Positions 39,032-48,361 of a stretch of 48,361 nucleotides of DNA are shown piece by piece. The stretch's first letter is position 1. Every line of letters begins with the position of its first letter. Made by a program: the position numbers and the translations under genes. Source of the stretch: Actinomycetes bacterium (GTDB lineage Bacteria > Actinomycetota > Acidimicrobiia > Acidimicrobiales > Poriferisodalaceae); the NCBI GenBank assembly GCA_024228575.1, contig JAAETH010000104.1, positions 1 through 48,361 of the forward strand. Direction: 5' to 3'. Below the pieces are notes generated by a model. The model did not search any database. It was given only the letters and a program-made list of their open reading frames with translations, and was not told the DNA's origin.

Positions 39032-40087
39032 TCAGTTGTGTGCGACGGCCGGCAGGCTGACCGCTACCTCGCCGCCCGGGCCACGACCGATCTCGATCGA
39101 CCCGCCGTGAGCCTCGGTGACCCCCCTCACGATCGCCAGCCCAAGTCCAGCACCACCCCTCGAGCGGTCGCGGCTGGCGTCGGCACGCGAAAAGGCCTCG
39201 GTCGCCTTGTCGATGAAGCCTGCAGGAAAGCCAGGACCGTCGTCGAGGACGGTGACAACCACCTCTGCTATCGGCGATCCGGGGTCGACGCCGACAGTAA
39301 CGGTGACAACCCCCGGAGCGCCAGCGTGACGAATTGCGTTGTCGAGCAGGTTTCGCACGACCCGGCCGAGATGATGTGAGGTTCCCCGGACGACGGTGCT
39401 CGCACCCGGATCGATCGCTACCACGACGTCGAGTGAAACCCCTCTGGCGGCAGCGCTGGGCAATAGTGCCTCGGCAGACTCGTCGACCACCTCGGCGACG
39501 TCGACGAGGTCGCGGCCGACCTCAAAACGCCCCGCATCGATCTGGGCCAACAAGAAGAGGTCCTCGGTGAGGCGACCCAGGTGTTCGGCTTCGCGACCGA
39601 TGGCCACCAGGTAGCGAGCAGGGTCGGGGGCAACACCATCCTGGAGTGCCTCAACGGCAGCGCGTATGGCCGCCAAGGGAGTCCGAAGGTCGTGGCCGAC
39701 CGAAGCGAACAGAAGCCGCCGCTCGGCTTCCTCTGCTTCGCGCCTGCGCTCGGCGAGCTCGAGACGGCCGACCATCTCGTCGAACGAGCGAGCAGTGGCC
39801 CCGACCTCGTCGCGGCGCTCCACACCGGAACGGGCGCTCAGGTCGCCTGCCGCAACCTGGCGGGCCGCCGAGGCGAGCTGATCGAGGTCGTCGACCAGTG
39901 GTCGGCTGACCCGGACGGCGACGAGGACCGCAAGTCCGAAAGCAGCGACGAGCACCACCAACATCAGGTTGCGTTCCGAACCCGACAGCCACATGGCCTC
40001 GGCCGCGACGAACACGGCCGCCAACGCTGTCGCAGTGGCGGCGACCGCGCCGGCGAGGATGAGCCTTCTCACGCTGCTGTTGGTCAT
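39032..40087 (-). CDS. Two-component sensor histidine kinase
   Basis: A 351-residue membrane kinase. Two helices (about 9-30 and 40-58) enclose an external loop of only some ten residues, so the sensor site is probably within the membrane or in an accessory protein. A HAMP domain (about 58-113) leads to the H box ASVGHDLRTPLAAI with phospho-acceptor His132. The ATPase domain has N box NLLDNAIRHAG, G1 VLDDGPGFP and G2 GGAGLGLAIV. It overlaps the response regulator stop as ATGA and is co-translated with it. The upstream spondin lipoprotein on the same strand is a candidate target or sensor partner. HAMP plus minimal loop fits the intramembrane-sensing kinase class. Confidence 0.93.
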   Translation of the reverse strand: MTNSSVRRLILAGAVAATATALAAVFVAAEAMWLSGSERNLMLVVLVAAFGLAVLVAVRVSRPLVDDLDQLASAARQVAAGDLSARSGVERRDEVGATARSFDEMVGRLELAERRREAEEAERRLLFASVGHDLRTPLAAIRAAVEALQDGVAPDPARYLVAIGREAEHLGRLTEDLFLLAQIDAGRFEVGRDLVDVAEVVDESAEALLPSAAARGVSLDVVVAIDPGASTVVRGTSHHLGRVVRNLLDNAIRHAGAPGVVTVTVGVDPGSPIAEVVVTVLDDGPGFPAGFIDKATEAFSRADASRDRSRGGAGLGLAIVRGVTEAHGGSIEIGRGPGGEVAVSLPAVAHN

Positions 40088-40776
40088 GAGCTTGTCCCTG
40101 GTTCGAAGCGATAGCCGATACCCCACACGGTCAGAAGGTGTTTTGGTGAATCGGGGTCTGTTTCTATGCGGCGCCGCAACCGCCTTATGTGCACGGTAAC
40201 CGTGGATGGGTCCTGCCAATCGGGCGACGACTGCCAGACGGTCTCGAGCAGCTCGGCCCGGGAGAACGCTCGACCGGGGTGACGAGCCATGAAGGCGAGC
40301 AGATCGAACTCTCGAGGTGTCGTCTCCACCGCCTCGCCGTCGATCCTGATCTCTCGAGCCGGCTCATCGACGACAATTCGGCCCAGATCCATGACGGTGC
40401 CTCCACTGTCTGACCTGACCCGCCTGAGCACCGAACGCACTCGCGCTGCCAATTCTCTCGGAGAGAATGGCTTGACGACATAGTCGTCGGCGCCAAGGTC
40501 GAGCCCGGCAACCCGCTCGCTCTCACCGGTACGCGCCGTCAACATGATGACGGGGAGGTCGCCGGTCTCACGAATTCGGGCGAGAACGCTGAACCCGTCC
40601 AGTTCGGGGAGCATGACATCGAGAACGACCAGGTCGGGCCTGTCGGTGCCGACGACCTCGAGTGCCCGACGTCCATCGCCGACTTCGGTGACACGCGCGC
40701 CGTCCTTGCGGAGATACTCGGCCACCACGGCTCGAACGGTGGGCTCGTCGTCGACGACGAGAACATGGGCAGTCAT
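40084..40776 (-). CDS. OmpR/PhoB-family response regulator
   Basis: A 230-residue DNA-binding regulator. The receiver domain (1-120) has the acidic pair D9-D10, phospho-acceptor D53 in LVVLDVMLP, T80 and K102. The winged-helix effector (about 130-228) has TPREFDLLAFMARHPGRAFSRAELLE and STVTVHIRRLRRRI, with the end GYRFEP. The ATG at 40774-40776 aligns with the family. An in-frame ATG at 40815 would place the three GGATCAG repeats inside the coding sequence. It overlaps the kinase gene by 4 nt. The target promoters are unknown; the spondin gene upstream is the nearest candidate. Confidence 0.95.
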   Translation of the reverse strand: MTAHVLVVDDEPTVRAVVAEYLRKDGARVTEVGDGRRALEVVGTDRPDLVVLDVMLPELDGFSVLARIRETGDLPVIMLTARTGESERVAGLDLGADDYVVKPFSPRELAARVRSVLRRVRSDSGGTVMDLGRIVVDEPAREIRIDGEAVETTPREFDLLAFMARHPGRAFSRAELLETVWQSSPDWQDPSTVTVHIRRLRRRIETDPDSPKHLLTVWGIGYRFEPGTSS

Positions 40777-40781
40777 CTTCT

Positions 40782-40802
40782 CTGATCCCTGATCCCTGAT
40801 CC
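40782..40802. repeat. Three perfect 7-bp tandem repeats at the response regulator start
   Basis: CTGATCC is repeated three times without change at 40782-40788, 40789-40795 and 40796-40802. On the coding (minus) strand this reads GGATCAG three times, ending only five bases before ATG 40776, so the repeats cover the ribosome-binding region. Confidence 0.9.
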
Positions 40803-40899
40803 CGTTCGACACCATCGGTCCATTGTCGACACTCGCGGGCTCTGGTGCCACCCAGAACCCGCAGAGTTCCGAATTCGTTCAGCTCTTCTGTGAGAACCG

Positions 40900-41709
40900 T
40901 CAGCCGTCCTCGTCCATTTCTGCGTCGCCCATTCCCGACATGTCGTCGTTCATCATGTCGCCGGCGTGGATGGTGACCTTGACCAGGCCGGTGGCAGGAC
41001 CCACGAGGCGCACGGTCTCGTCAGGATCGTCGGCACCGGTACCCGGAGCTGTCTGACGAGGTGCCTGATCGGCTCCTTCGCCAATGGGTTGATCGATCTC
41101 CGTGCCGGCGTCGTAGATCATGACGTACTCGCTGATGTCGCCATCGAGTGGCATGCCGCCCGAGAACAGGGCAAGGGTGTCGATGGCGAGGAACCAGTCG
41201 TTCGACTGGACGTACATGAAAGCGAGGCTCAGCGAGTCGCCCTCGTGGCCCTCGACGGTGAGGAGGTAGCCGTCGCCTGGGAATGCAGGACCACCCATGG
41301 CGTCATCGGAACCAGCGACGCTGTCCGGCACAGCTGCGACCACACCGTCCACGGTGAGTACGAGTTCGGACGGGTCGCCGTCCTCGGCCAGCTGCTCGAG
41401 ACCGACAGCCTTCATGGAATCGCCGACAGCAAAGATCGGATTCGGACCGTGTCCGGTCACGGCGACGACCGGAGCGAAGGGCGTTGGTGTATCAGAACCG
41501 TCGGACACGTTCTCGACGTGGACGGTGAAGGTGGTGCCCATCATCGCCATCTCGTCGTCGACCATCTCGTCAGCCATCTCGTCGCTCTGAGCGGCCGCAA
41601 CGCTGGTCGACGGGTTCGATTCGGCATTGGTCTGGTCGGACGAATCGCCACAAGCAGCGGCTAGCAGCGCGAGAGCTGCTGCCAGCGCAAGAGTTCTGAA
41701 GATAGTCAT
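40900..41709 (-). CDS. Spondin_N-domain lipoprotein with Met-rich ends
   Basis: A predicted 269-residue lipoprotein. The signal MTIFRTLALAAALALLAA leads to lipobox A-A-A-C with Cys20. The spondin_N domain (about 58-245) shows FTVHVENVSDGSDTPTPFAPV, PNPIFAVGDSMKAVGLEQLAEDG, MYVQSNDWFLAID and the end region EGADQAPRQTAPGTG, all typical of bacterial members. The segments flanking it are rich in Met, Asp and Glu: DEMADEMVDDEMAMMG before and GDMMNDDMSGMGDAEMDEDG after. Met clusters of this kind can bind copper(I) or silver, but that is inference. The ATG has GGAGAG five bases upstream. It precedes the response regulator by 123 bp and is divergent from the HD-GYP receptor gene. Confidence 0.9.
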   Translation of the reverse strand: MTIFRTLALAAALALLAAACGDSSDQTNAESNPSTSVAAAQSDEMADEMVDDEMAMMGTTFTVHVENVSDGSDTPTPFAPVVAVTGHGPNPIFAVGDSMKAVGLEQLAEDGDPSELVLTVDGVVAAVPDSVAGSDDAMGGPAFPGDGYLLTVEGHEGDSLSLAFMYVQSNDWFLAIDTLALFSGGMPLDGDISEYVMIYDAGTEIDQPIGEGADQAPRQTAPGTGADDPDETVRLVGPATGLVKVTIHAGDMMNDDMSGMGDAEMDEDG

Positions 41710-41910
41710 GGGTCTCTCCCTGTACTGGGCCGACCTCGACTGATCGGCGTGCACACAGGAAAGACCCGAGACAACCCGAATCAGTCCGTTTCGGGCGACT
41801 GTTAAGCCTTCTACAAGGGTCCTTACGGAATCCTTTCCGGCCCGCACGCGACGCGAGAAGTGCCCCTGGCGAACCCTTGTTTTCGCCCGTCCTCGACCGA
41901 CTGGGAATGA

Positions 41911-44900
41911 GTGCCGTCCGCTGGTCCGACAAAAGGCGCAGAGCGTCACACTGCCAAGGTCGAGCAGTGGCAGGCGCATCCCAACGTCGCGCGGGTCATG
42001 CGCGCCGCCATCTTTGTGCTGCCGATCATCACGGCTGCGACCTTTGTCTGGACCGCCAGCCGTCTGGTTCCACCCGCGAAGCTGGGGCTGAACCGCTGGA
42101 TTTGGACAGCGCTGATGTTCGTGGTGGCGAACCTCATCGTCCACGGCCTGACCAAGGTGCTGAGGCGATTCGCCCCCCTGGTCGCGCTGATGAAGCTGAC
42201 GCTGGTGTTCCCGGACCACGCACCGTCCAGGTCGAGGGCCTCGCTGCGAAGTTCGAACTCGAGGGCGATGCTGCGGTCTATCGAAGAAGCGGCTGCGTCC
42301 GGCGAGCAGACACCCGAGACACTACATGGCGAGTACCTCGTCCAGTTGCTGAAGGAGATCAACGAGCACGACAGGCTCACACGAGGCCACTCCGAGCGGG
42401 TCAGGGCCTACTCCGAGTTGATCGGTGAGGAAATTGGCTTGTCGGATGAGGACTTGAGCCGACTTCGGTGGGCAGCGCTGCTGCACGACGTCGGCAAGCT
42501 GACCGTGCCCTCCGAGGTCTTGAACAAGGATGGCCGACCCACAGAGGAGGAATGGGCCGCCATCGCGAGCCACCCGACCCACGGCATCCGCTTCCTCGCT
42601 CCGCTCCGGGACTGGCTCGGCGAGTGGATCCACGCGGCAGACCAGCACCACTGCCGCTGGGACGGTGCGGGATACCCGCAGAAGCTGGCCGGACAGGAGA
42701 TCTCGATCGCGGGTCGCATCGTCGCTGTCGCAGACGCCTACGACGTCATGACCAGCGCTCGTAGTTACAAGAAGGCGCTGTCACCCGAAGCCGCTAGACA
42801 GGAGCTGACCGAGTGCTCTGGCGGCCAGTTCGACCCTGCGGTGGTTCGTGCTTTCCTGAACGTCAGCCTCGGTCGGGTTCGAGCGGTGGGTGGACCGCTG
42901 GCGTGGCTGGCCAACTTCCTTGGAACAGCACAGGGCCAGGTTCCGCTGGTCAGCACGGTGGCGTCGGCGGGCTCGACCGTGGCCACCGCAACCGGAGTCG
43001 CCGTAACCGTGGTGACGGGCGTCGTACCCGAGGTGGCGCCGGTGGCGGCCGCCGAAGCACTTTCGGTCATCGAGGTCATCGACGTTGGCGCCGAAACGCT
43101 CGAAGACGTCGCAACCGCTGTGGTCATCGTGGTCACAGCGGGCGAGGAGACACCTTCTCTGAGGTTCGCCGATCCCGAACATGGCGAGTTTCTGGCCGAG
43201 GGCGATCCCACATCTCTCGGCGATGGCAGATGGGAGCTCACCGGCCGCTACACACCCGAAGGTGACTTCAATGGGACCGACCAGTTCTCGTTCGATGCCT
43301 GCCTACCCGACGGGACCTGCCAGAGCGCTTCTGTCCAGGTGTCGATCGCTCCCGTCAACGATGCGCCGGTGGCCGGCGCCGACCGAGTGGCGGTCTTGCC
43401 CGGTGGTGTTGCGACTCTCGATGTCGTCGCCAACGACACCGACGCCGATGGCGACGAGCTCGAACTCGAGGATGTGAGCAGTCCCGAAAGCGGGACAGCC
43501 CGAATCGAGAACAACCGCATCGTGTATGAGCCCGAAGACGGCTTTGTCGGGACCGAGACCATCGAGTACACGATCGTGGATGGAGACGGAGAGCGATCGA
43601 CAGCTCGCGTCACCATCGACGTCGTGGCTCGGCCGACGACCACGGTAACCGGGCTCCCCCGAGCAGAAGAGTCAACAACCACAACAACAACAACAACGAC
43701 GACAACCACCACAACAACGGCACCCACAACAACAACCACCACCACAACGGCACCCACAACAACCACCACCACCACCGCAACAACGGCACCTACCACGACG
43801 ACGGCCGCGCCGCCGAACGAATCACCGACGGCCAACGACGATTCGGCCGACGTCGACGAGGACGGCATCGTCGATATTGATGTGCTCGAAAACGACACCG
43901 ACCCAGACGTAGATGTGCTCTCGATAGTCGAGGTGTCATCTCCCGACCACGGATCGACCTCGATCATCGATGGCAAGGTCAGATACACACCCGACACCGA
44001 CTACAGCGGTGCCGACGAGTTCCAGTACTCGATCAGTGACGGCGTCAATTCGGTTGTCGACGCAACGGTGAACATCATCGTTGCAGCTGTCAACGACCTA
44101 CCGACCATCTCGATCCCCACGGCGGTGGCGACGCTGGAGACAGCGGCAATCGGCACCGAGGTCGCCGTCGTGACCTTCGGCGACGTCGATGGTGACGACC
44201 TCGTCTTGTCGATAGTTGCGGGCAACGACGACGACAGTTTCCAGATCGATCAGGGAGGGTCACTGAGGATCGGAAACCTGCTCGACCACGAGACGACACC
44301 AACCTACGTACTCACGATCCAGGCCTCGGACGCGGCTGCCCAGGTCACCGCCCAGACGACCATCACCGTGGGAAATATCAATGAGCAACCAGTGACCCAG
44401 GACGACTCGGGAACGGGCTTCACCACGGCCGAAGACCAGGATCTGCTCACACCGTCGATCATCGGCAACGACACCGACCCCGAGGACGGGACAATCGACC
44501 CGGCGAGGATCACGATCATTGCACCTCCCATGCTCGGAGATCTGACCAATCACAACGACGGAACGTTCACCTACGCCCCACTGTCGGACTGGAGTGGTAC
44601 TGACGGATTCACCTACAGGGTGGCCGACAGCGGCGGGCTCGAGTCCGAAGAGGCGACGGTGACAATTGTCGTCACCCCTGTGAACGACGCACCCGAGGTC
44701 ACGAACCCCGGAACACAGGAGGCCGCCGAACTGACACCGTTCGGTCTTGCGATCGATGCATCCGACCCCGAAACAACAAACCCGACCTACTCGGCCATAG
44801 GTCTGCCTGCGGGACTGGACATCGACTCGGACGGTGTCATCGACGGAACTCCAACTGCCGGCACGTCCGGGACCCACACCGTGCGCGTAACCGTCACCGA

Positions 44901-46920
44901 CGACGCGACACCCGCGAAGTCCACCTCGGTGACGTTCGACCTCGAGGTTGGTTTGTACCTGTTGTCTCCGAGCACCGATGACATCGTGGTCAATGAACTG
45001 CTGCCCAGCCAGAACACGTCCGACACATTCGAGTTCGTCGAGCTGTTCAACACATCGGCTGAGCCGGTCAGCCTTGTCGGATGGCGAGCCCTCGACGACG
45101 ACTTGAAGGGGCTGCACGACGGCCAGCTCGACTTCACCATCCCCGCGACAGACGAGCGCGGGGCGGCTTCGTTGCTAGGCCCTGGCCAGTACGCCGTGCT
45201 CTGGCTGAATCGGGCGCCCGGATCGGCCCTCGTGGTCGACACCGACGGCGTGCTCGAGTACATGGTCGGAAACACTGGCGGCACGTTGTCCAGCGCTGGC
45301 GACGACATCTGGCTTCTCGACGCCGAAACCCGATTGGTCGACTACATGAGCTTCGGAACCGGAATGGAAGTGGACCCACCGCCGGTCGGCCTCGGGATCT
45401 ACGACGACACACACAGACCAGGACTGAACGCGAACCCCGAGTCGTTGGCGCTGACACCCAACGGCCACGATGGTCACACGAGCGCATGTTGGGAGCCGAC
45501 GGGATCTGACGAGGCCAACGGACGTTGTGCGAGCGCCCAGCCAACATTCGACCAGGGCAGGATCGTGGGCAGGTTGAGCAGCGTCGGCTTCAACAACAAC
45601 GCACCCGCGCCCAATGCCGGCGGCCCATACCCCATGTCCGAGGGTGACGACCTGGTGCTGGCGGGTTTCGATGCCGACCCGCTGAGCACGTGGGAATGGG
45701 ACCTGAACAATGACGGATCACCCGACGTCGTGGGGCAGAACCTCAGCGTTTCCTGGGCCACCCTCGAGGGCCTCGGCCTGGACGACGACGCCGTCTATCC
45801 GATCACGCTCACCGTCGAAGGCGTTTCGGATACAACCTCGATCTCGATGGACAACACGAGGCCCGATCTGGTGATCGCAGGCAACACATTCGCCGACGTG
45901 GGCGTCCCCTACTCGATGAATCTCAGCTCGACCGATCCCGGGGCCGACACCATCAGCCAATGGACCGTGAATTGGGGCGACGGACACTTCGACACATATG
46001 TCGGAGCGACACCGACGGCTACACACACCTTCAACCTCGCGGAGATGTCGCACGGCATTTCCGTGGCTGCCATCGACGAGGACGGCACCACTTTCGAGAA
46101 CGATCTGCTCGTTGCCAACTACGACGCGAACAACTTCCTCAGGTTCGAACCCGTGACCGGAGCATTCGTCCAATCGATACCCACGGGCGCTGCCCCCGTT
46201 CAGCCGATCTTGGGCCCCGCTGGCACGATCCTCGTGAGTGGCGAAGGTGCCAACAACGTCACTGCCTATCAAGCAGACGGAACACCGTTGGGTGAGTTCG
46301 TCACCGCTGGCGCCGGAGGCCTAGCAGACCCTGCGGGCCTAGCGTTCGGTCCTGGTGGAAACCTGTGGGTAGCCAGCTCGGGCGACGGGCGGGTCCGGAT
46401 CTACGACGCACTCGGCACCTACTTGAGCACCTTCACGACGCTGGCACCGGACTCGTACGCCATCCTCTTCGATGCCACCGGCCACATATTGATCGGCAGC
46501 TACGACAGCCACTCCATCCTTCGGTTCGACGTCTCGGACGGAGGGGTCGCTCATACCTTCGTCACGCCGACCTCTGGCGGTCTCGACAGCCCCGAGCAGA
46601 TGGCATTCGGTCCGGACGGGAACCTCTACGTCGCAAGCCTTGGAAAGGGTGAGATCCTTCGATTCAACGGCTCGACCGGTGCGTTCATCGGTGTCTTCGT
46701 CGCTGCCGGGGGACCAGCAGGGTTGACCAGCCCGAGTGGCATGGCATTCGGCCCAGACGGCCATCTCTATGTCGCAGACTACGCAGACGGAACCATCAGC
46801 CGCTACGACGGAGACACCGGGATCTACCTCGGCGAGTACGTGGCACCTGGAACAAACGGCCTGGCCGGCCCAGGCCTGATGGCCTTCGCCCCCGACCTGA
46901 TGGTCTTCGTCAACCCGTAA
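41911..46920 (+). CDS. Giant HD-GYP phosphodiesterase fused to a multi-domain ectodomain
   Basis: A 1,669-residue predicted transmembrane receptor. Two helices (about 32-53 and 63-84) with flanking basic residues are followed by an HD-GYP domain (about 148-320), whose family cleaves c-di-GMP. Putative metal ligands H160, H192-D193, H221, H246-H247 and D275 are present and the GYP element is D-G-A-G-Y-P (251-256); the usual HHE reads HHC. A third hydrophobic segment (about 344-383) probably returns outward. Outside are Ig/cadherin-like repeats (about 415-573 and 637-1013) around a poly-Thr stalk (588-632), a lamin-tail domain (about 1022-1150), a PKD-like region (about 1230-1395) and six NHL-like blades (about 1397-1669). 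No sortase signal was seen. GTG 41911 has a weak site; an ATG at 41998 is the alternative. Confidence 0.88.
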   Translation: MPSAGPTKGAERHTAKVEQWQAHPNVARVMRAAIFVLPIITAATFVWTASRLVPPAKLGLNRWIWTALMFVVANLIVHGLTKVLRRFAPLVALMKLTLVFPDHAPSRSRASLRSSNSRAMLRSIEEAAASGEQTPETLHGEYLVQLLKEINEHDRLTRGHSERVRAYSELIGEEIGLSDEDLSRLRWAALLHDVGKLTVPSEVLNKDGRPTEEEWAAIASHPTHGIRFLAPLRDWLGEWIHAADQHHCRWDGAGYPQKLAGQEISIAGRIVAVADAYDVMTSARSYKKALSPEAARQELTECSGGQFDPAVVRAFLNVSLGRVRAVGGPLAWLANFLGTAQGQVPLVSTVASAGSTVATATGVAVTVVTGVVPEVAPVAAAEALSVIEVIDVGAETLEDVATAVVIVVTAGEETPSLRFADPEHGEFLAEGDPTSLGDGRWELTGRYTPEGDFNGTDQFSFDACLPDGTCQSASVQVSIAPVNDAPVAGADRVAVLPGGVATLDVVANDTDADGDELELEDVSSPESGTARIENNRIVYEPEDGFVGTETIEYTIVDGDGERSTARVTIDVVARPTTTVTGLPRAEESTTTTTTTTTTTTTTTAPTTTTTTTTAPTTTTTTTATTAPTTTTAAPPNESPTANDDSADVDEDGIVDIDVLENDTDPDVDVLSIVEVSSPDHGSTSIIDGKVRYTPDTDYSGADEFQYSISDGVNSVVDATVNIIVAAVNDLPTISIPTAVATLETAAIGTEVAVVTFGDVDGDDLVLSIVAGNDDDSFQIDQGGSLRIGNLLDHETTPTYVLTIQASDAAAQVTAQTTITVGNINEQPVTQDDSGTGFTTAEDQDLLTPSIIGNDTDPEDGTIDPARITIIAPPMLGDLTNHNDGTFTYAPLSDWSGTDGFTYRVADSGGLESEEATVTIVVTPVNDAPEVTNPGTQEAAELTPFGLAIDASDPETTNPTYSAIGLPAGLDIDSDGVIDGTPTAGTSGTHTVRVTVTDDATPAKSTSVTFDLEVGLYLLSPSTDDIVVNELLPSQNTSDTFEFVELFNTSAEPVSLVGWRALDDDLKGLHDGQLDFTIPATDERGAASLLGPGQYAVLWLNRAPGSALVVDTDGVLEYMVGNTGGTLSSAGDDIWLLDAETRLVDYMSFGTGMEVDPPPVGLGIYDDTHRPGLNANPESLALTPNGHDGHTSACWEPTGSDEANGRCASAQPTFDQGRIVGRLSSVGFNNNAPAPNAGGPYPMSEGDDLVLAGFDADPLSTWEWDLNNDGSPDVVGQNLSVSWATLEGLGLDDDAVYPITLTVEGVSDTTSISMDNTRPDLVIAGNTFADVGVPYSMNLSSTDPGADTISQWTVNWGDGHFDTYVGATPTATHTFNLAEMSHGISVAAIDEDGTTFENDLLVANYDANNFLRFEPVTGAFVQSIPTGAAPVQPILGPAGTILVSGEGANNVTAYQADGTPLGEFVTAGAGGLADPAGLAFGPGGNLWVASSGDGRVRIYDALGTYLSTFTTLAPDSYAILFDATGHILIGSYDSHSILRFDVSDGGVAHTFVTPTSGGLDSPEQMAFGPDGNLYVASLGKGEILRFNGSTGAFIGVFVAAGGPAGLTSPSGMAFGPDGHLYVADYADGTISRYDGDTGIYLGEYVAPGTNGLAGPGLMAFAPDLMVFVNP
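43672..43806 (+). repeat. Poly-threonine codon tract (ACA/ACC/ACG) in the HD-GYP receptor gene
   Basis: Residues 588-632 are almost all Thr, broken by Ala-Pro. The DNA is a near-perfect trinucleotide array of ACA, ACC and ACG, with TTTAPTTT units repeated. Such arrays change length by slippage or recombination; all changes by multiples of three keep the frame. Confidence 0.9.
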
Positions 46921-46967
46921 TACCGGCCACGACACCGAACATGACAGCGCCTAAGCGCGACCCGACG

Positions 46968-48361
46968 TTAGCTACACAATGCTGCGAGCCTGGAAGCAGC
47001 GATTGTTTCAGGGTCCGGGTCGTATCCGGCAAGTCTGGTGGCCGTCACGGCATGGTCACCCTCGAAGACGGGCTCCGGTGGGGCGAGGATGGGATCCCCG
47101 CAGGGGAGTCGCCTGTTGTCCACGTCGAACACGAGCGTGCCGCCCTCCGGGATCGCATAGGTGGCGCCTACGCCGCCACCGAAGTCGAAGCACCGGTTGC
47201 CAAGATCACCCAGCGGATCGCCGACGTCGGGGTTGTACGGCACAATCGTGGTGTCGACCGTCTCGTCGCCATCGGTGTCGATTTGCCACAACGGCGACCA
47301 TGCCGGTCGAAGGTTGCGTTCGCAGATGGTGTAGGTGAGTGCCGGATCCAGCTTGAAGCCGTCGAACTCGAGCACACCATCAGCATCGCCATAGGTACTG
47401 CTGCTCGCCAAGACGCTGTCGCGGAACCCATCGGGTCCGAGGTACAGCTCGAATGTCCAGTTGACCGCAGAGTTCAGCTTTCCGTTCGTGAGCTTGAAGA
47501 GCTTCACCAAGCTCTTCTCGTAGTTCCCGAAATCGCTACCGGCCAGGGCGTCGCCCGCCTCGAAGGTCACGTCGTGGGTACAGGAGCTCGGATAGGAACA
47601 GATCCAATCGGTCGACAGCTCCTCGCTCACGCTCCACGTGCCGGGGGAGATGCCGGTGATTGAGTACGAACCGTCAGCAGCGGTCACGCCAGAGGGTTCG
47701 CTCGCATCGAGTTCACCATTGCCGTCGTAGTCGACGTAGATGGTCCAACCCGCGAGACCGAGCTCGTCTGCCTCGCGCGGCTGGCCGTCGAAGTCGGCGT
47801 CATGGAACTTCATGCCCGACAGGGTCGCCGGGAGGACCCCGAAGTAATGCGACGGATCCTCGTCACTGACCTCGTTGTCCCCAGGATCGGTGCCCACAGC
47901 GGTACCGATATTGGCGTACTGACCCTCCACCGCAACACCACTGGCCGTACAAGTCATCGATTCACCCACGGCCAAGGCGCTACCGGGACAGATCACCGTC
48001 ACACCCTGATCGTCGATCACCGACACATCAGTGAGATCCACTTCGCCTGTGTTCGTGACCAAATATTCCCAGGTCACCTCTTCGCCAACCAGGATCTCGG
48101 GCCCAGTCTCGGTGTCAGCATCCTCACCATTGGTCGCCTTCTCGATATCGATCGAAGGCACAACCCCGAAGTAATGCGACGGATCCTCGTCACTGACCTC
48201 TGTGCCATCAGGATCGAAACCAACAGCGGTACCAACGTTGGCGTACTGACCCACCGCCGCCACACCACTGGCCTCACAGACCATCGACTCACCCACGACC
48301 AAAGTGGTGCCAGGACAGTCCACCGTCACACCCTGATCATCGGTCACCGACACATCGCCGA
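46968..48361 (-). CDS. DUF11/SdrD B-like repeat surface protein, C-terminal part (cut by window edge)
   Basis: About 464 codons of the C-terminal part of a large exported protein lie in the window; the start is beyond the right edge. From the N-terminal side there are two tandem DUF11/DUF7507-like repeats of 109 residues, each with DDQGVTV, CPG, VGESM, ASGVA, GQYAN and SDEDPSHYFG. A SdrD B-like domain follows (SGMKFHDADFDGQPREADE, then GYDGNGE-like VDYDGNGELDASE), a prealbumin/SpaA-type fold common in adhesin stalks. A C-terminal domain with several Cys ends at the stop, and no LPxTG motif or membrane anchor is visible. It is convergent with the HD-GYP receptor gene (47-bp gap). Role in adhesion or surface layer is inferred. 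Confidence 0.8.
   Translation of the reverse strand, partial: GDVSVTDDQGVTVDCPGTTLVVGESMVCEASGVAAVGQYANVGTAVGFDPDGTEVSDEDPSHYFGVVPSIDIEKATNGEDADTETGPEILVGEEVTWEYLVTNTGEVDLTDVSVIDDQGVTVICPGSALAVGESMTCTASGVAVEGQYANIGTAVGTDPGDNEVSDEDPSHYFGVLPATLSGMKFHDADFDGQPREADELGLAGWTIYVDYDGNGELDASEPSGVTAADGSYSITGISPGTWSVSEELSTDWICSYPSSCTHDVTFEAGDALAGSDFGNYEKSLVKLFKLTNGKLNSAVNWTFELYLGPDGFRDSVLASSSTYGDADGVLEFDGFKLDPALTYTICERNLRPAWSPLWQIDTDGDETVDTTIVPYNPDVGDPLGDLGNRCFDFGGGVGATYAIPEGGTLVFDVDNRRLPCGDPILAPPEPVFEGDHAVTATRLAGYDPDPETIAASRLAALCS
47837..48361 (-). repeat. Tandem 327-bp DUF11 coding repeats
   Basis: Two adjacent units spaced 327 bp (109 codons) apart. A 37-bp stretch is identical at 47837-47873 and 48164-48200, and flanking sequence is closely similar. 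The second unit continues past the right edge, so more copies may follow. Confidence 0.9.

Follow-up and report, generated by a model that had tools for sequence, protein, structure and literature searches.

The 48,361-nucleotide stretch of DNA that we analysed (the window) contains a single gene that joins a membrane-anchored HD-GYP phosphodiesterase with its catalytic residues to a very large C-terminal tail, and we lean towards the view that its product is a single-chain outside-in receptor phosphodiesterase, built like PknB. The original prediction had placed both halves in one protein, and this was borne out. The 1669-codon frame at 41911-46920 (+) opened with GTG at 41911, closed with a stop at 46920 and had no internal stop, and a frameshift splitting the halves into separate genes was looked for and was absent. 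A GPTxG motif just 3' of the GTG start was conserved among the closest homologs, while a promoter scan over 41500-47100 gave no match. The features of the gene are as follows.

41911..46920 (+): whole receptor gene, a single open frame of 1669 aa with a GTG start
42004..42195 (+): two-helix membrane module, aa 32-95 (TM1 about 32-52, TM2 about 62-84, helix on to 95)
42208..42369 (+): juxtamembrane FPDxAPSR box (aa 100-107) and lead-in helices to aa 153 (AF2 helices 106-153)
42355..42843 (+): HD-GYP phosphodiesterase domain, aa 149-311 (Pfam HD_5, 5.9e-35)
42868..42921 (+): GPLAWLAN juxtamembrane helix, aa 320-337, after the HD-GYP end (AF2 helix)
42943..43059 (+): third hydrophobic segment, aa about 345-383, weak in the window copy (no K/R at about 325-417)
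43069..43620 (+): first Ig-like/Big_9 domains with the Cys464-Cys470 pair, aa 387-570 (AF2 beta-sandwich; Big_9 483-569)
43675..43806 (+): poly-Thr stalk, aa 589-632 (from the sequence; tandem DNA repeat 43673-43784)
43816..44937 (+): cadherin/Ig-like repeats and He_PIG, aa 636-1009 (Pfam)
44968..45354 (+): lamin-tail (LTD) domain, aa 1020-1148 (Pfam, 5.6e-13)
45583..46077 (+): PKD-like region, aa 1225-1389 (homology to a region of the relative L043 that matches PKD)
46099..46905 (+): six-bladed NHL beta-propeller, the putative outer tip, aa 1397-1665 (Pfam NHL, 1.8e-11)

The fusion was also observed in a second genome of the same genus, where the enzyme module was 80% identical and carried the same tail, and where the neighbouring genes (lipoprotein, response regulator, kinase, trigger factor and ClpP) matched those of the window by sequence. 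Because this ortholog shares both the fusion and the synteny, a chimera in the window was ruled out. With one frame and a recurring fusion and gene order, a frameshift, a gene-fusion artefact and an assembly chimera were all rejected. The ortholog (L093) contained a single in-frame TAG within an Ig domain, near 2211-2213 of the first 9 kb (-) in L037 coordinates, after which the frame stayed open up to the contig edge; the TAG could reflect a nonsense mutation or an error in the sequencing of this MAG.

Upstream of the receptor gene we observed a divergent lipoprotein-like frame at 40903-41709 (-), Asp/Met-rich and without a Pfam match, adjoined by a response regulator/histidine kinase pair at 39032-40851 in an order kept in the same-genus genome. 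A two-component pair near the receptor gene was seen in the window and, by eye, in L055 and L056, and no obvious conserved neighbours were found outside the genus. The convergent neighbour at 46968-48353 (-), a DUF7507/SdrD_B-type surface protein, ran past the window end, and two large surface proteins thus adjoin at this locus.

The enzyme domain matched HD_5 with 121 bits against a cut-off of 27.2. Its PDB relatives were 5z7c, 4mcw and 4r8z, and Foldseek matched it to 9rbz, 4r8z and 4mcw, with the HD-GYP domain of DvhD as the top match. Site mapping against PmGH (PMC4159591) showed that seven of the eight metal ligands were kept (H160, H192, D193, H221, H246, H247 and D275), together with the HD and HH motifs, the GYP motif (G254-Y255-P256) and the catalytic D/K pair D154/K196, equivalent to D183/K225 of PmGH; in PmGH numbering, the positions kept were H189, H221, D222, K225, H250, H276, H277, D305, D183 and GYP. 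Eight of these residues (H160, H192, D193, K196, H221, H246, H247 and D275) were conserved in 46 of 46 family members checked, and the mapped positions as a whole were invariant or almost invariant. The predicted HD-GYP module with its presumed metal ligands was therefore upheld by the HD_5 match and the seven PmGH ligands, and a degenerate HD-GYP domain was rejected since the catalytic ligands are intact. The eighth ligand, E185 of PmGH, was replaced by L156 in the window protein and by L, R, K or A in most members. This replacement sets the enzyme outside the E/D-T-G subgroup with its three-metal centre, yet still within HD-GYP, and suggests a two-metal centre in the window enzyme. A change from HHE to HHC beside the metal-site histidines was observed in one clade (7 of 46 members, window included), the cysteine of the window protein being C248 (codon 42652-42654). 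Domain matches in the genome numbered 23 for GGDEF, 11 for EAL and 4 for HD-GYP, with 3 for PilZ above cut-off; the presence of a GGDEF/EAL/PilZ set makes c-di-GMP a plausible substrate, and cGAMP may be in play as well.

Hydrophobic segments had been predicted at about residues 32-53, 63-84 and 344-383. The first two were recovered as AF2 helices (24-52 and 62-95, pLDDT mostly >90) with predicted dG of -0.3 and 0.1, while the third was hydrophobic but marginal. The AF2 model of the N-terminal part, built on a 26-sequence alignment, was confident for both helices and the HD-GYP domain, left aa 335-385 around segment 3 unmodelled (pLDDT <50) and resumed with a beta-sandwich from 387. Insertion energies were computed with a re-implementation of the Hessa 2007 scale, for which poly-Leu and Ala/Leu peptides served as a sanity check. 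On this scale segment 3 of the window protein had a dG of 4.0, the weakest among 73 family members measured and a value reached by 10% of ectodomain tiles. Across the family, segment 3 was the most hydrophobic stretch past the enzyme (median dG 1.9 vs 5.6 for 246 ectodomain tiles), and none of the 246 tiles had a dG as low as 1.9; in several short-tailed members the GPLAWL region itself was the best hydrophobic stretch. Comparison of 46 members showed W20, P38, P89 and L93 to be invariant, as were P105 and R107 of the FPDxAPSR box, and in the GPLAWLAN helix, which carries a conserved GPLxWLA box, G328 was conserved in 40 and W332 in 34 of the 46. The region 41911-42354 (aa 1-148), which holds the conserved two-helix module and the FPDxAPSR box, belonged to no Pfam family.

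A cytoplasmic HD-GYP domain and an extracytoplasmic tail, the topology originally predicted, are strongly supported by the family, in which cysteine parity, K+R content, the charges flanking the membrane segments and domain content agree. Tails had an even number of cysteines in 39 of 76 members, an odd number in none and no cysteine in 37, while 27 of the 76 enzyme halves had an odd count, these being related sequences that are not independent of one another. Such even-only counts give the tails the look of disulfide-bonded extracytoplasmic domains; the pairs in the window tail are C464/C470 and C1193/C1206. Median K+R content was 13.0% in enzyme halves vs 3.2% in tails, and the enzyme half exceeded the tail in 59 of 60 members. 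Mean K/R in the family was 3.0 before TM1, 0.8 in the TM1-TM2 loop and 2.5 after TM2, then 2.6 before and 0.8 after TM3, a distribution that agrees with the positive-inside rule. Two family members terminate in a PASTA domain, a type of domain that PknB carries on its extracytoplasmic side (PMC3145798, PMC6428115). The main caveat is the third crossing in the window copy, which is marginal and rests on the family evidence and on the character of its tail. An outside placement of HD-GYP, the lack of a third segment and a frameshift had been named beforehand as findings against the prediction, and none of them was found.

The tail after segment 3 comprised about 1,270 residues with Ig/cadherin domains, a poly-Thr stalk, LTD, a PKD-like region and an NHL propeller. 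Pfam matched Big_9 six times (4.7e-60), Cadherin_5/4, Cadherin (742-819) and He_PIG (928-1009). The propeller was modelled by AF2 with pLDDT of 75-91 over about 1400-1665 and about 24 strands, and its Foldseek matches were six-bladed NHL propellers, TRIM2 NHL and Pizza6; LTD was modelled with low to moderate confidence. Pfam, the sequence itself, AF2 and Foldseek together confirmed the Ig/cadherin, poly-Thr, lamin-tail and six-blade NHL parts of the original prediction, whereas its PKD-like region held in part. Pfam did not call PKD in the window protein itself; in L043, whose tip is 47% identical, the equivalent stretch matched PKD_4 (4.4e-6) and PKD (6.9e-5). AF2 with three sequences yielded no usable model of this region.

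A search for homologues collected 76 related proteins, a lower bound on family size, with a 2TM-HD-GYP-TM module from Acidimicrobiia and other Actinomycetota, nearly all with C-terminal tails. Full-length N-terminal matches were found across the order, and named relatives included Acidimicrobiales MAGs (module identity 52-64%) and one Actinomycetes MAG (48%). Among 296 genomes sampled from the class, a 26-sequence profile found the module at E <= 1e-90 in 30, and among 396 sampled from the phylum it did so in 18. Two paralogs were present in the window's own genome, C65 (1262 open codons, cut by a contig end) and C122 (664 aa). Tails ranged from almost nothing to >2,200 residues, with whole proteins of up to 2,600 aa, and contained Big_9/cadherin, LTD (up to seven), FG-GAP, NHL, bacterial surface Ig or PASTA domains, or no Pfam match; the shortest were Thr/Pro-rich ends or single PASTA or Ig domains. 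The two PASTA-terminated HD-GYP proteins, each with one such domain, were L083 and L087, and no paper in the literature searched mentioned HD-GYP together with a PASTA domain. Receptor gene copies were in tandem in L041, L042 and L075, which suggests that local duplication may supply new ectodomains.

The LTD-PKD-NHL tip occurred in 3 of 99 genomes and was never unfused there, the third tip-bearing genome being that of the same-genus ortholog, in which the tip lies 3' of the in-frame TAG. In the enzyme-module tree the window protein fell among its HHC relatives (seven proteins with support 100/95, including an inner group of six at 100/99), and L043 grouped with the C65 paralog (100/99). L043 and the window protein thus share the tip (47% identity) across two enzyme clades, while L056 and L058, close enzyme relatives of the window protein, have FG-GAP repeats in its place. 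Since the same tip sits on two enzyme clades, ectodomain tips have probably moved between paralogous receptors, with ancestral presence followed by many losses as the alternative. A wider reading, to which we give about even weight, is that these are receptor phosphodiesterases scattered through Actinomycetota. One conserved 2TM-HD-GYP-TM engine would then carry interchangeable ectodomains (propellers, Ig stalks, LTD or PASTA) that directly set c-di-GMP turnover from the cell exterior, with tips traded between paralogs.

In the receptor mechanism that we favor, the two N-terminal helices and the third segment would fix the chain in the cytoplasmic membrane with HD-GYP between them, facing the cytoplasm, and the Ig/cadherin domains and poly-Thr stalk would carry the six-bladed propeller outward. 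Binding or pulling at the tip would act through the third segment on the GPLAWLAN helix, next to the last HD-GYP helix, and the HD-GYP dimer may then shift between more and less active states. Membrane-near c-di-GMP would be removed or spared on surface contact or with a soluble ligand, the signal direction and ligand identity being what we infer. In DvhD the splay of the stalk helices in the HD-GYP dimer changes with nucleotide state (PMC13090378), so mechanical coupling would be possible in either direction, and the HD-GYP domain might instead read c-di-GMP and alter how exposed or sticky the ectodomain is, in the way that LapD and DvhD act via their periplasmic domains. DvhD is itself an inside-out c-di-GMP switch of the HD-GYP type (PMC13090378) and provided the top Foldseek match, and the window tail looks adhesin-like. 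However, metal ligands lost in DvhD (HD to SQ, HH to MN; PMC13090378) were kept in 46 of 46 members, and a search of the genome (97% complete) for a LapG-type protease (PF06035) gave nothing. Given the catalytic residues in place and the failure to find such a protease, we prefer outside-in control and regard inside-out signalling as unlikely here.

The tail may also be purely structural, an adhesin attached to the enzyme's membrane module, which would leave a constitutive phosphodiesterase near the site of attachment and carry no transmembrane signal. Its likeness to surface adhesin repeats (Big_9, Cadherin, tandem-95) and the hydrolytic residues in place would fit, but very varied tails on one conserved module fit exchangeable sensors better and a conserved GPLAWL box joins the enzyme to the third segment, and we consider this explanation improbable. 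Much more doubtful is a shed ectodomain, where segment 3 would serve as an internal signal peptide cut after VAPVAAAEA and a two-helix HD-GYP enzyme would remain. In the window protein the weak segment 3 runs into an AxA-type stretch, and several members have Ala-rich ends, both of which point that way, but these ends had no consistent motif when judged by eye, and the conserved fusion argues for joint action of the two halves.

Outer input is known to reach c-di-GMP enzymes mostly through N-terminal periplasmic sensor domains or through separate adhesin/receptor/protease systems. HD-GYP enzymes, membrane HD-GYP proteins (HdgA, PMC6205966) and HD-GYP receptors (DvhD) are already known. PmGH and the phosphodiesterases 4mcw, 5z7c and 4r8z share the catalytic fold, HD, HH, GYP and the D/K pair with the window protein; PmGH has E185 where the window protein has Leu, and all four are without a C-terminal ectodomain. 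DvhD from Desulfovibrio (PMC13090378) is likewise a membrane protein with a cytoplasmic HD-GYP and an outer domain, but this dCache domain lies N-terminal to HD-GYP, whereas the outer domain of the window protein is C-terminal and its TM1-TM2 loop has about 10 residues. In addition, DvhD has lost its catalytic ligands and has the protease DvhG as partner, in contrast to the kept ligands and missing PF06035 match here. Streptomyces HdgA/HdgB (PMC6205966) are also membrane-bound HD-GYP proteins of Actinomycetota, but with six helices and no described ectodomain, and the HdgB domain is degenerate. LapD/LapG/LapA similarly link surface adhesion to c-di-GMP, but as separate proteins with an inactive GGDEF-EAL receptor that works inside-out, whereas the window protein is one chain.

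In the portion of the literature searched, which took in few subscription journals, we found no HD-GYP family that keeps its catalytic residues and has the order enzyme-TM-large C-terminal ectodomain, and the HD-GYP matches for Acidimicrobi- concerned leptospirilli, as far as their abstracts tell. The domain order thus stands as undescribed in this literature, but the window protein is not a one-off, since its family has 76 or more members. PknB-type PASTA kinases (PMC3145798, PMC6428115) have the order cytoplasmic enzyme-TM-outer sensor, and PASTA itself occurs on two family members. The domain order of the window protein corresponds to this and the topology evidence of the family agrees, with a weak third segment and a putative sensor role. 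The PASTA kinases carry a kinase and no N-terminal two-helix module, whereas the window family has a phosphodiesterase with that module, and no protein kinase domain was matched by Pfam in the window protein. PknB-type kinases cross the membrane once. If ligand control is true, the family would offer a direct way to study how c-di-GMP in Actinomycetota is set by surface contact or, for the PASTA members, by cell-wall fragments, and the tip swaps that occur in nature hint at exchangeable parts for chimeras. Here a phosphodiesterase that has its catalytic residues shares one chain with a giant, exchangeable ectodomain, arranged as in a PASTA kinase.
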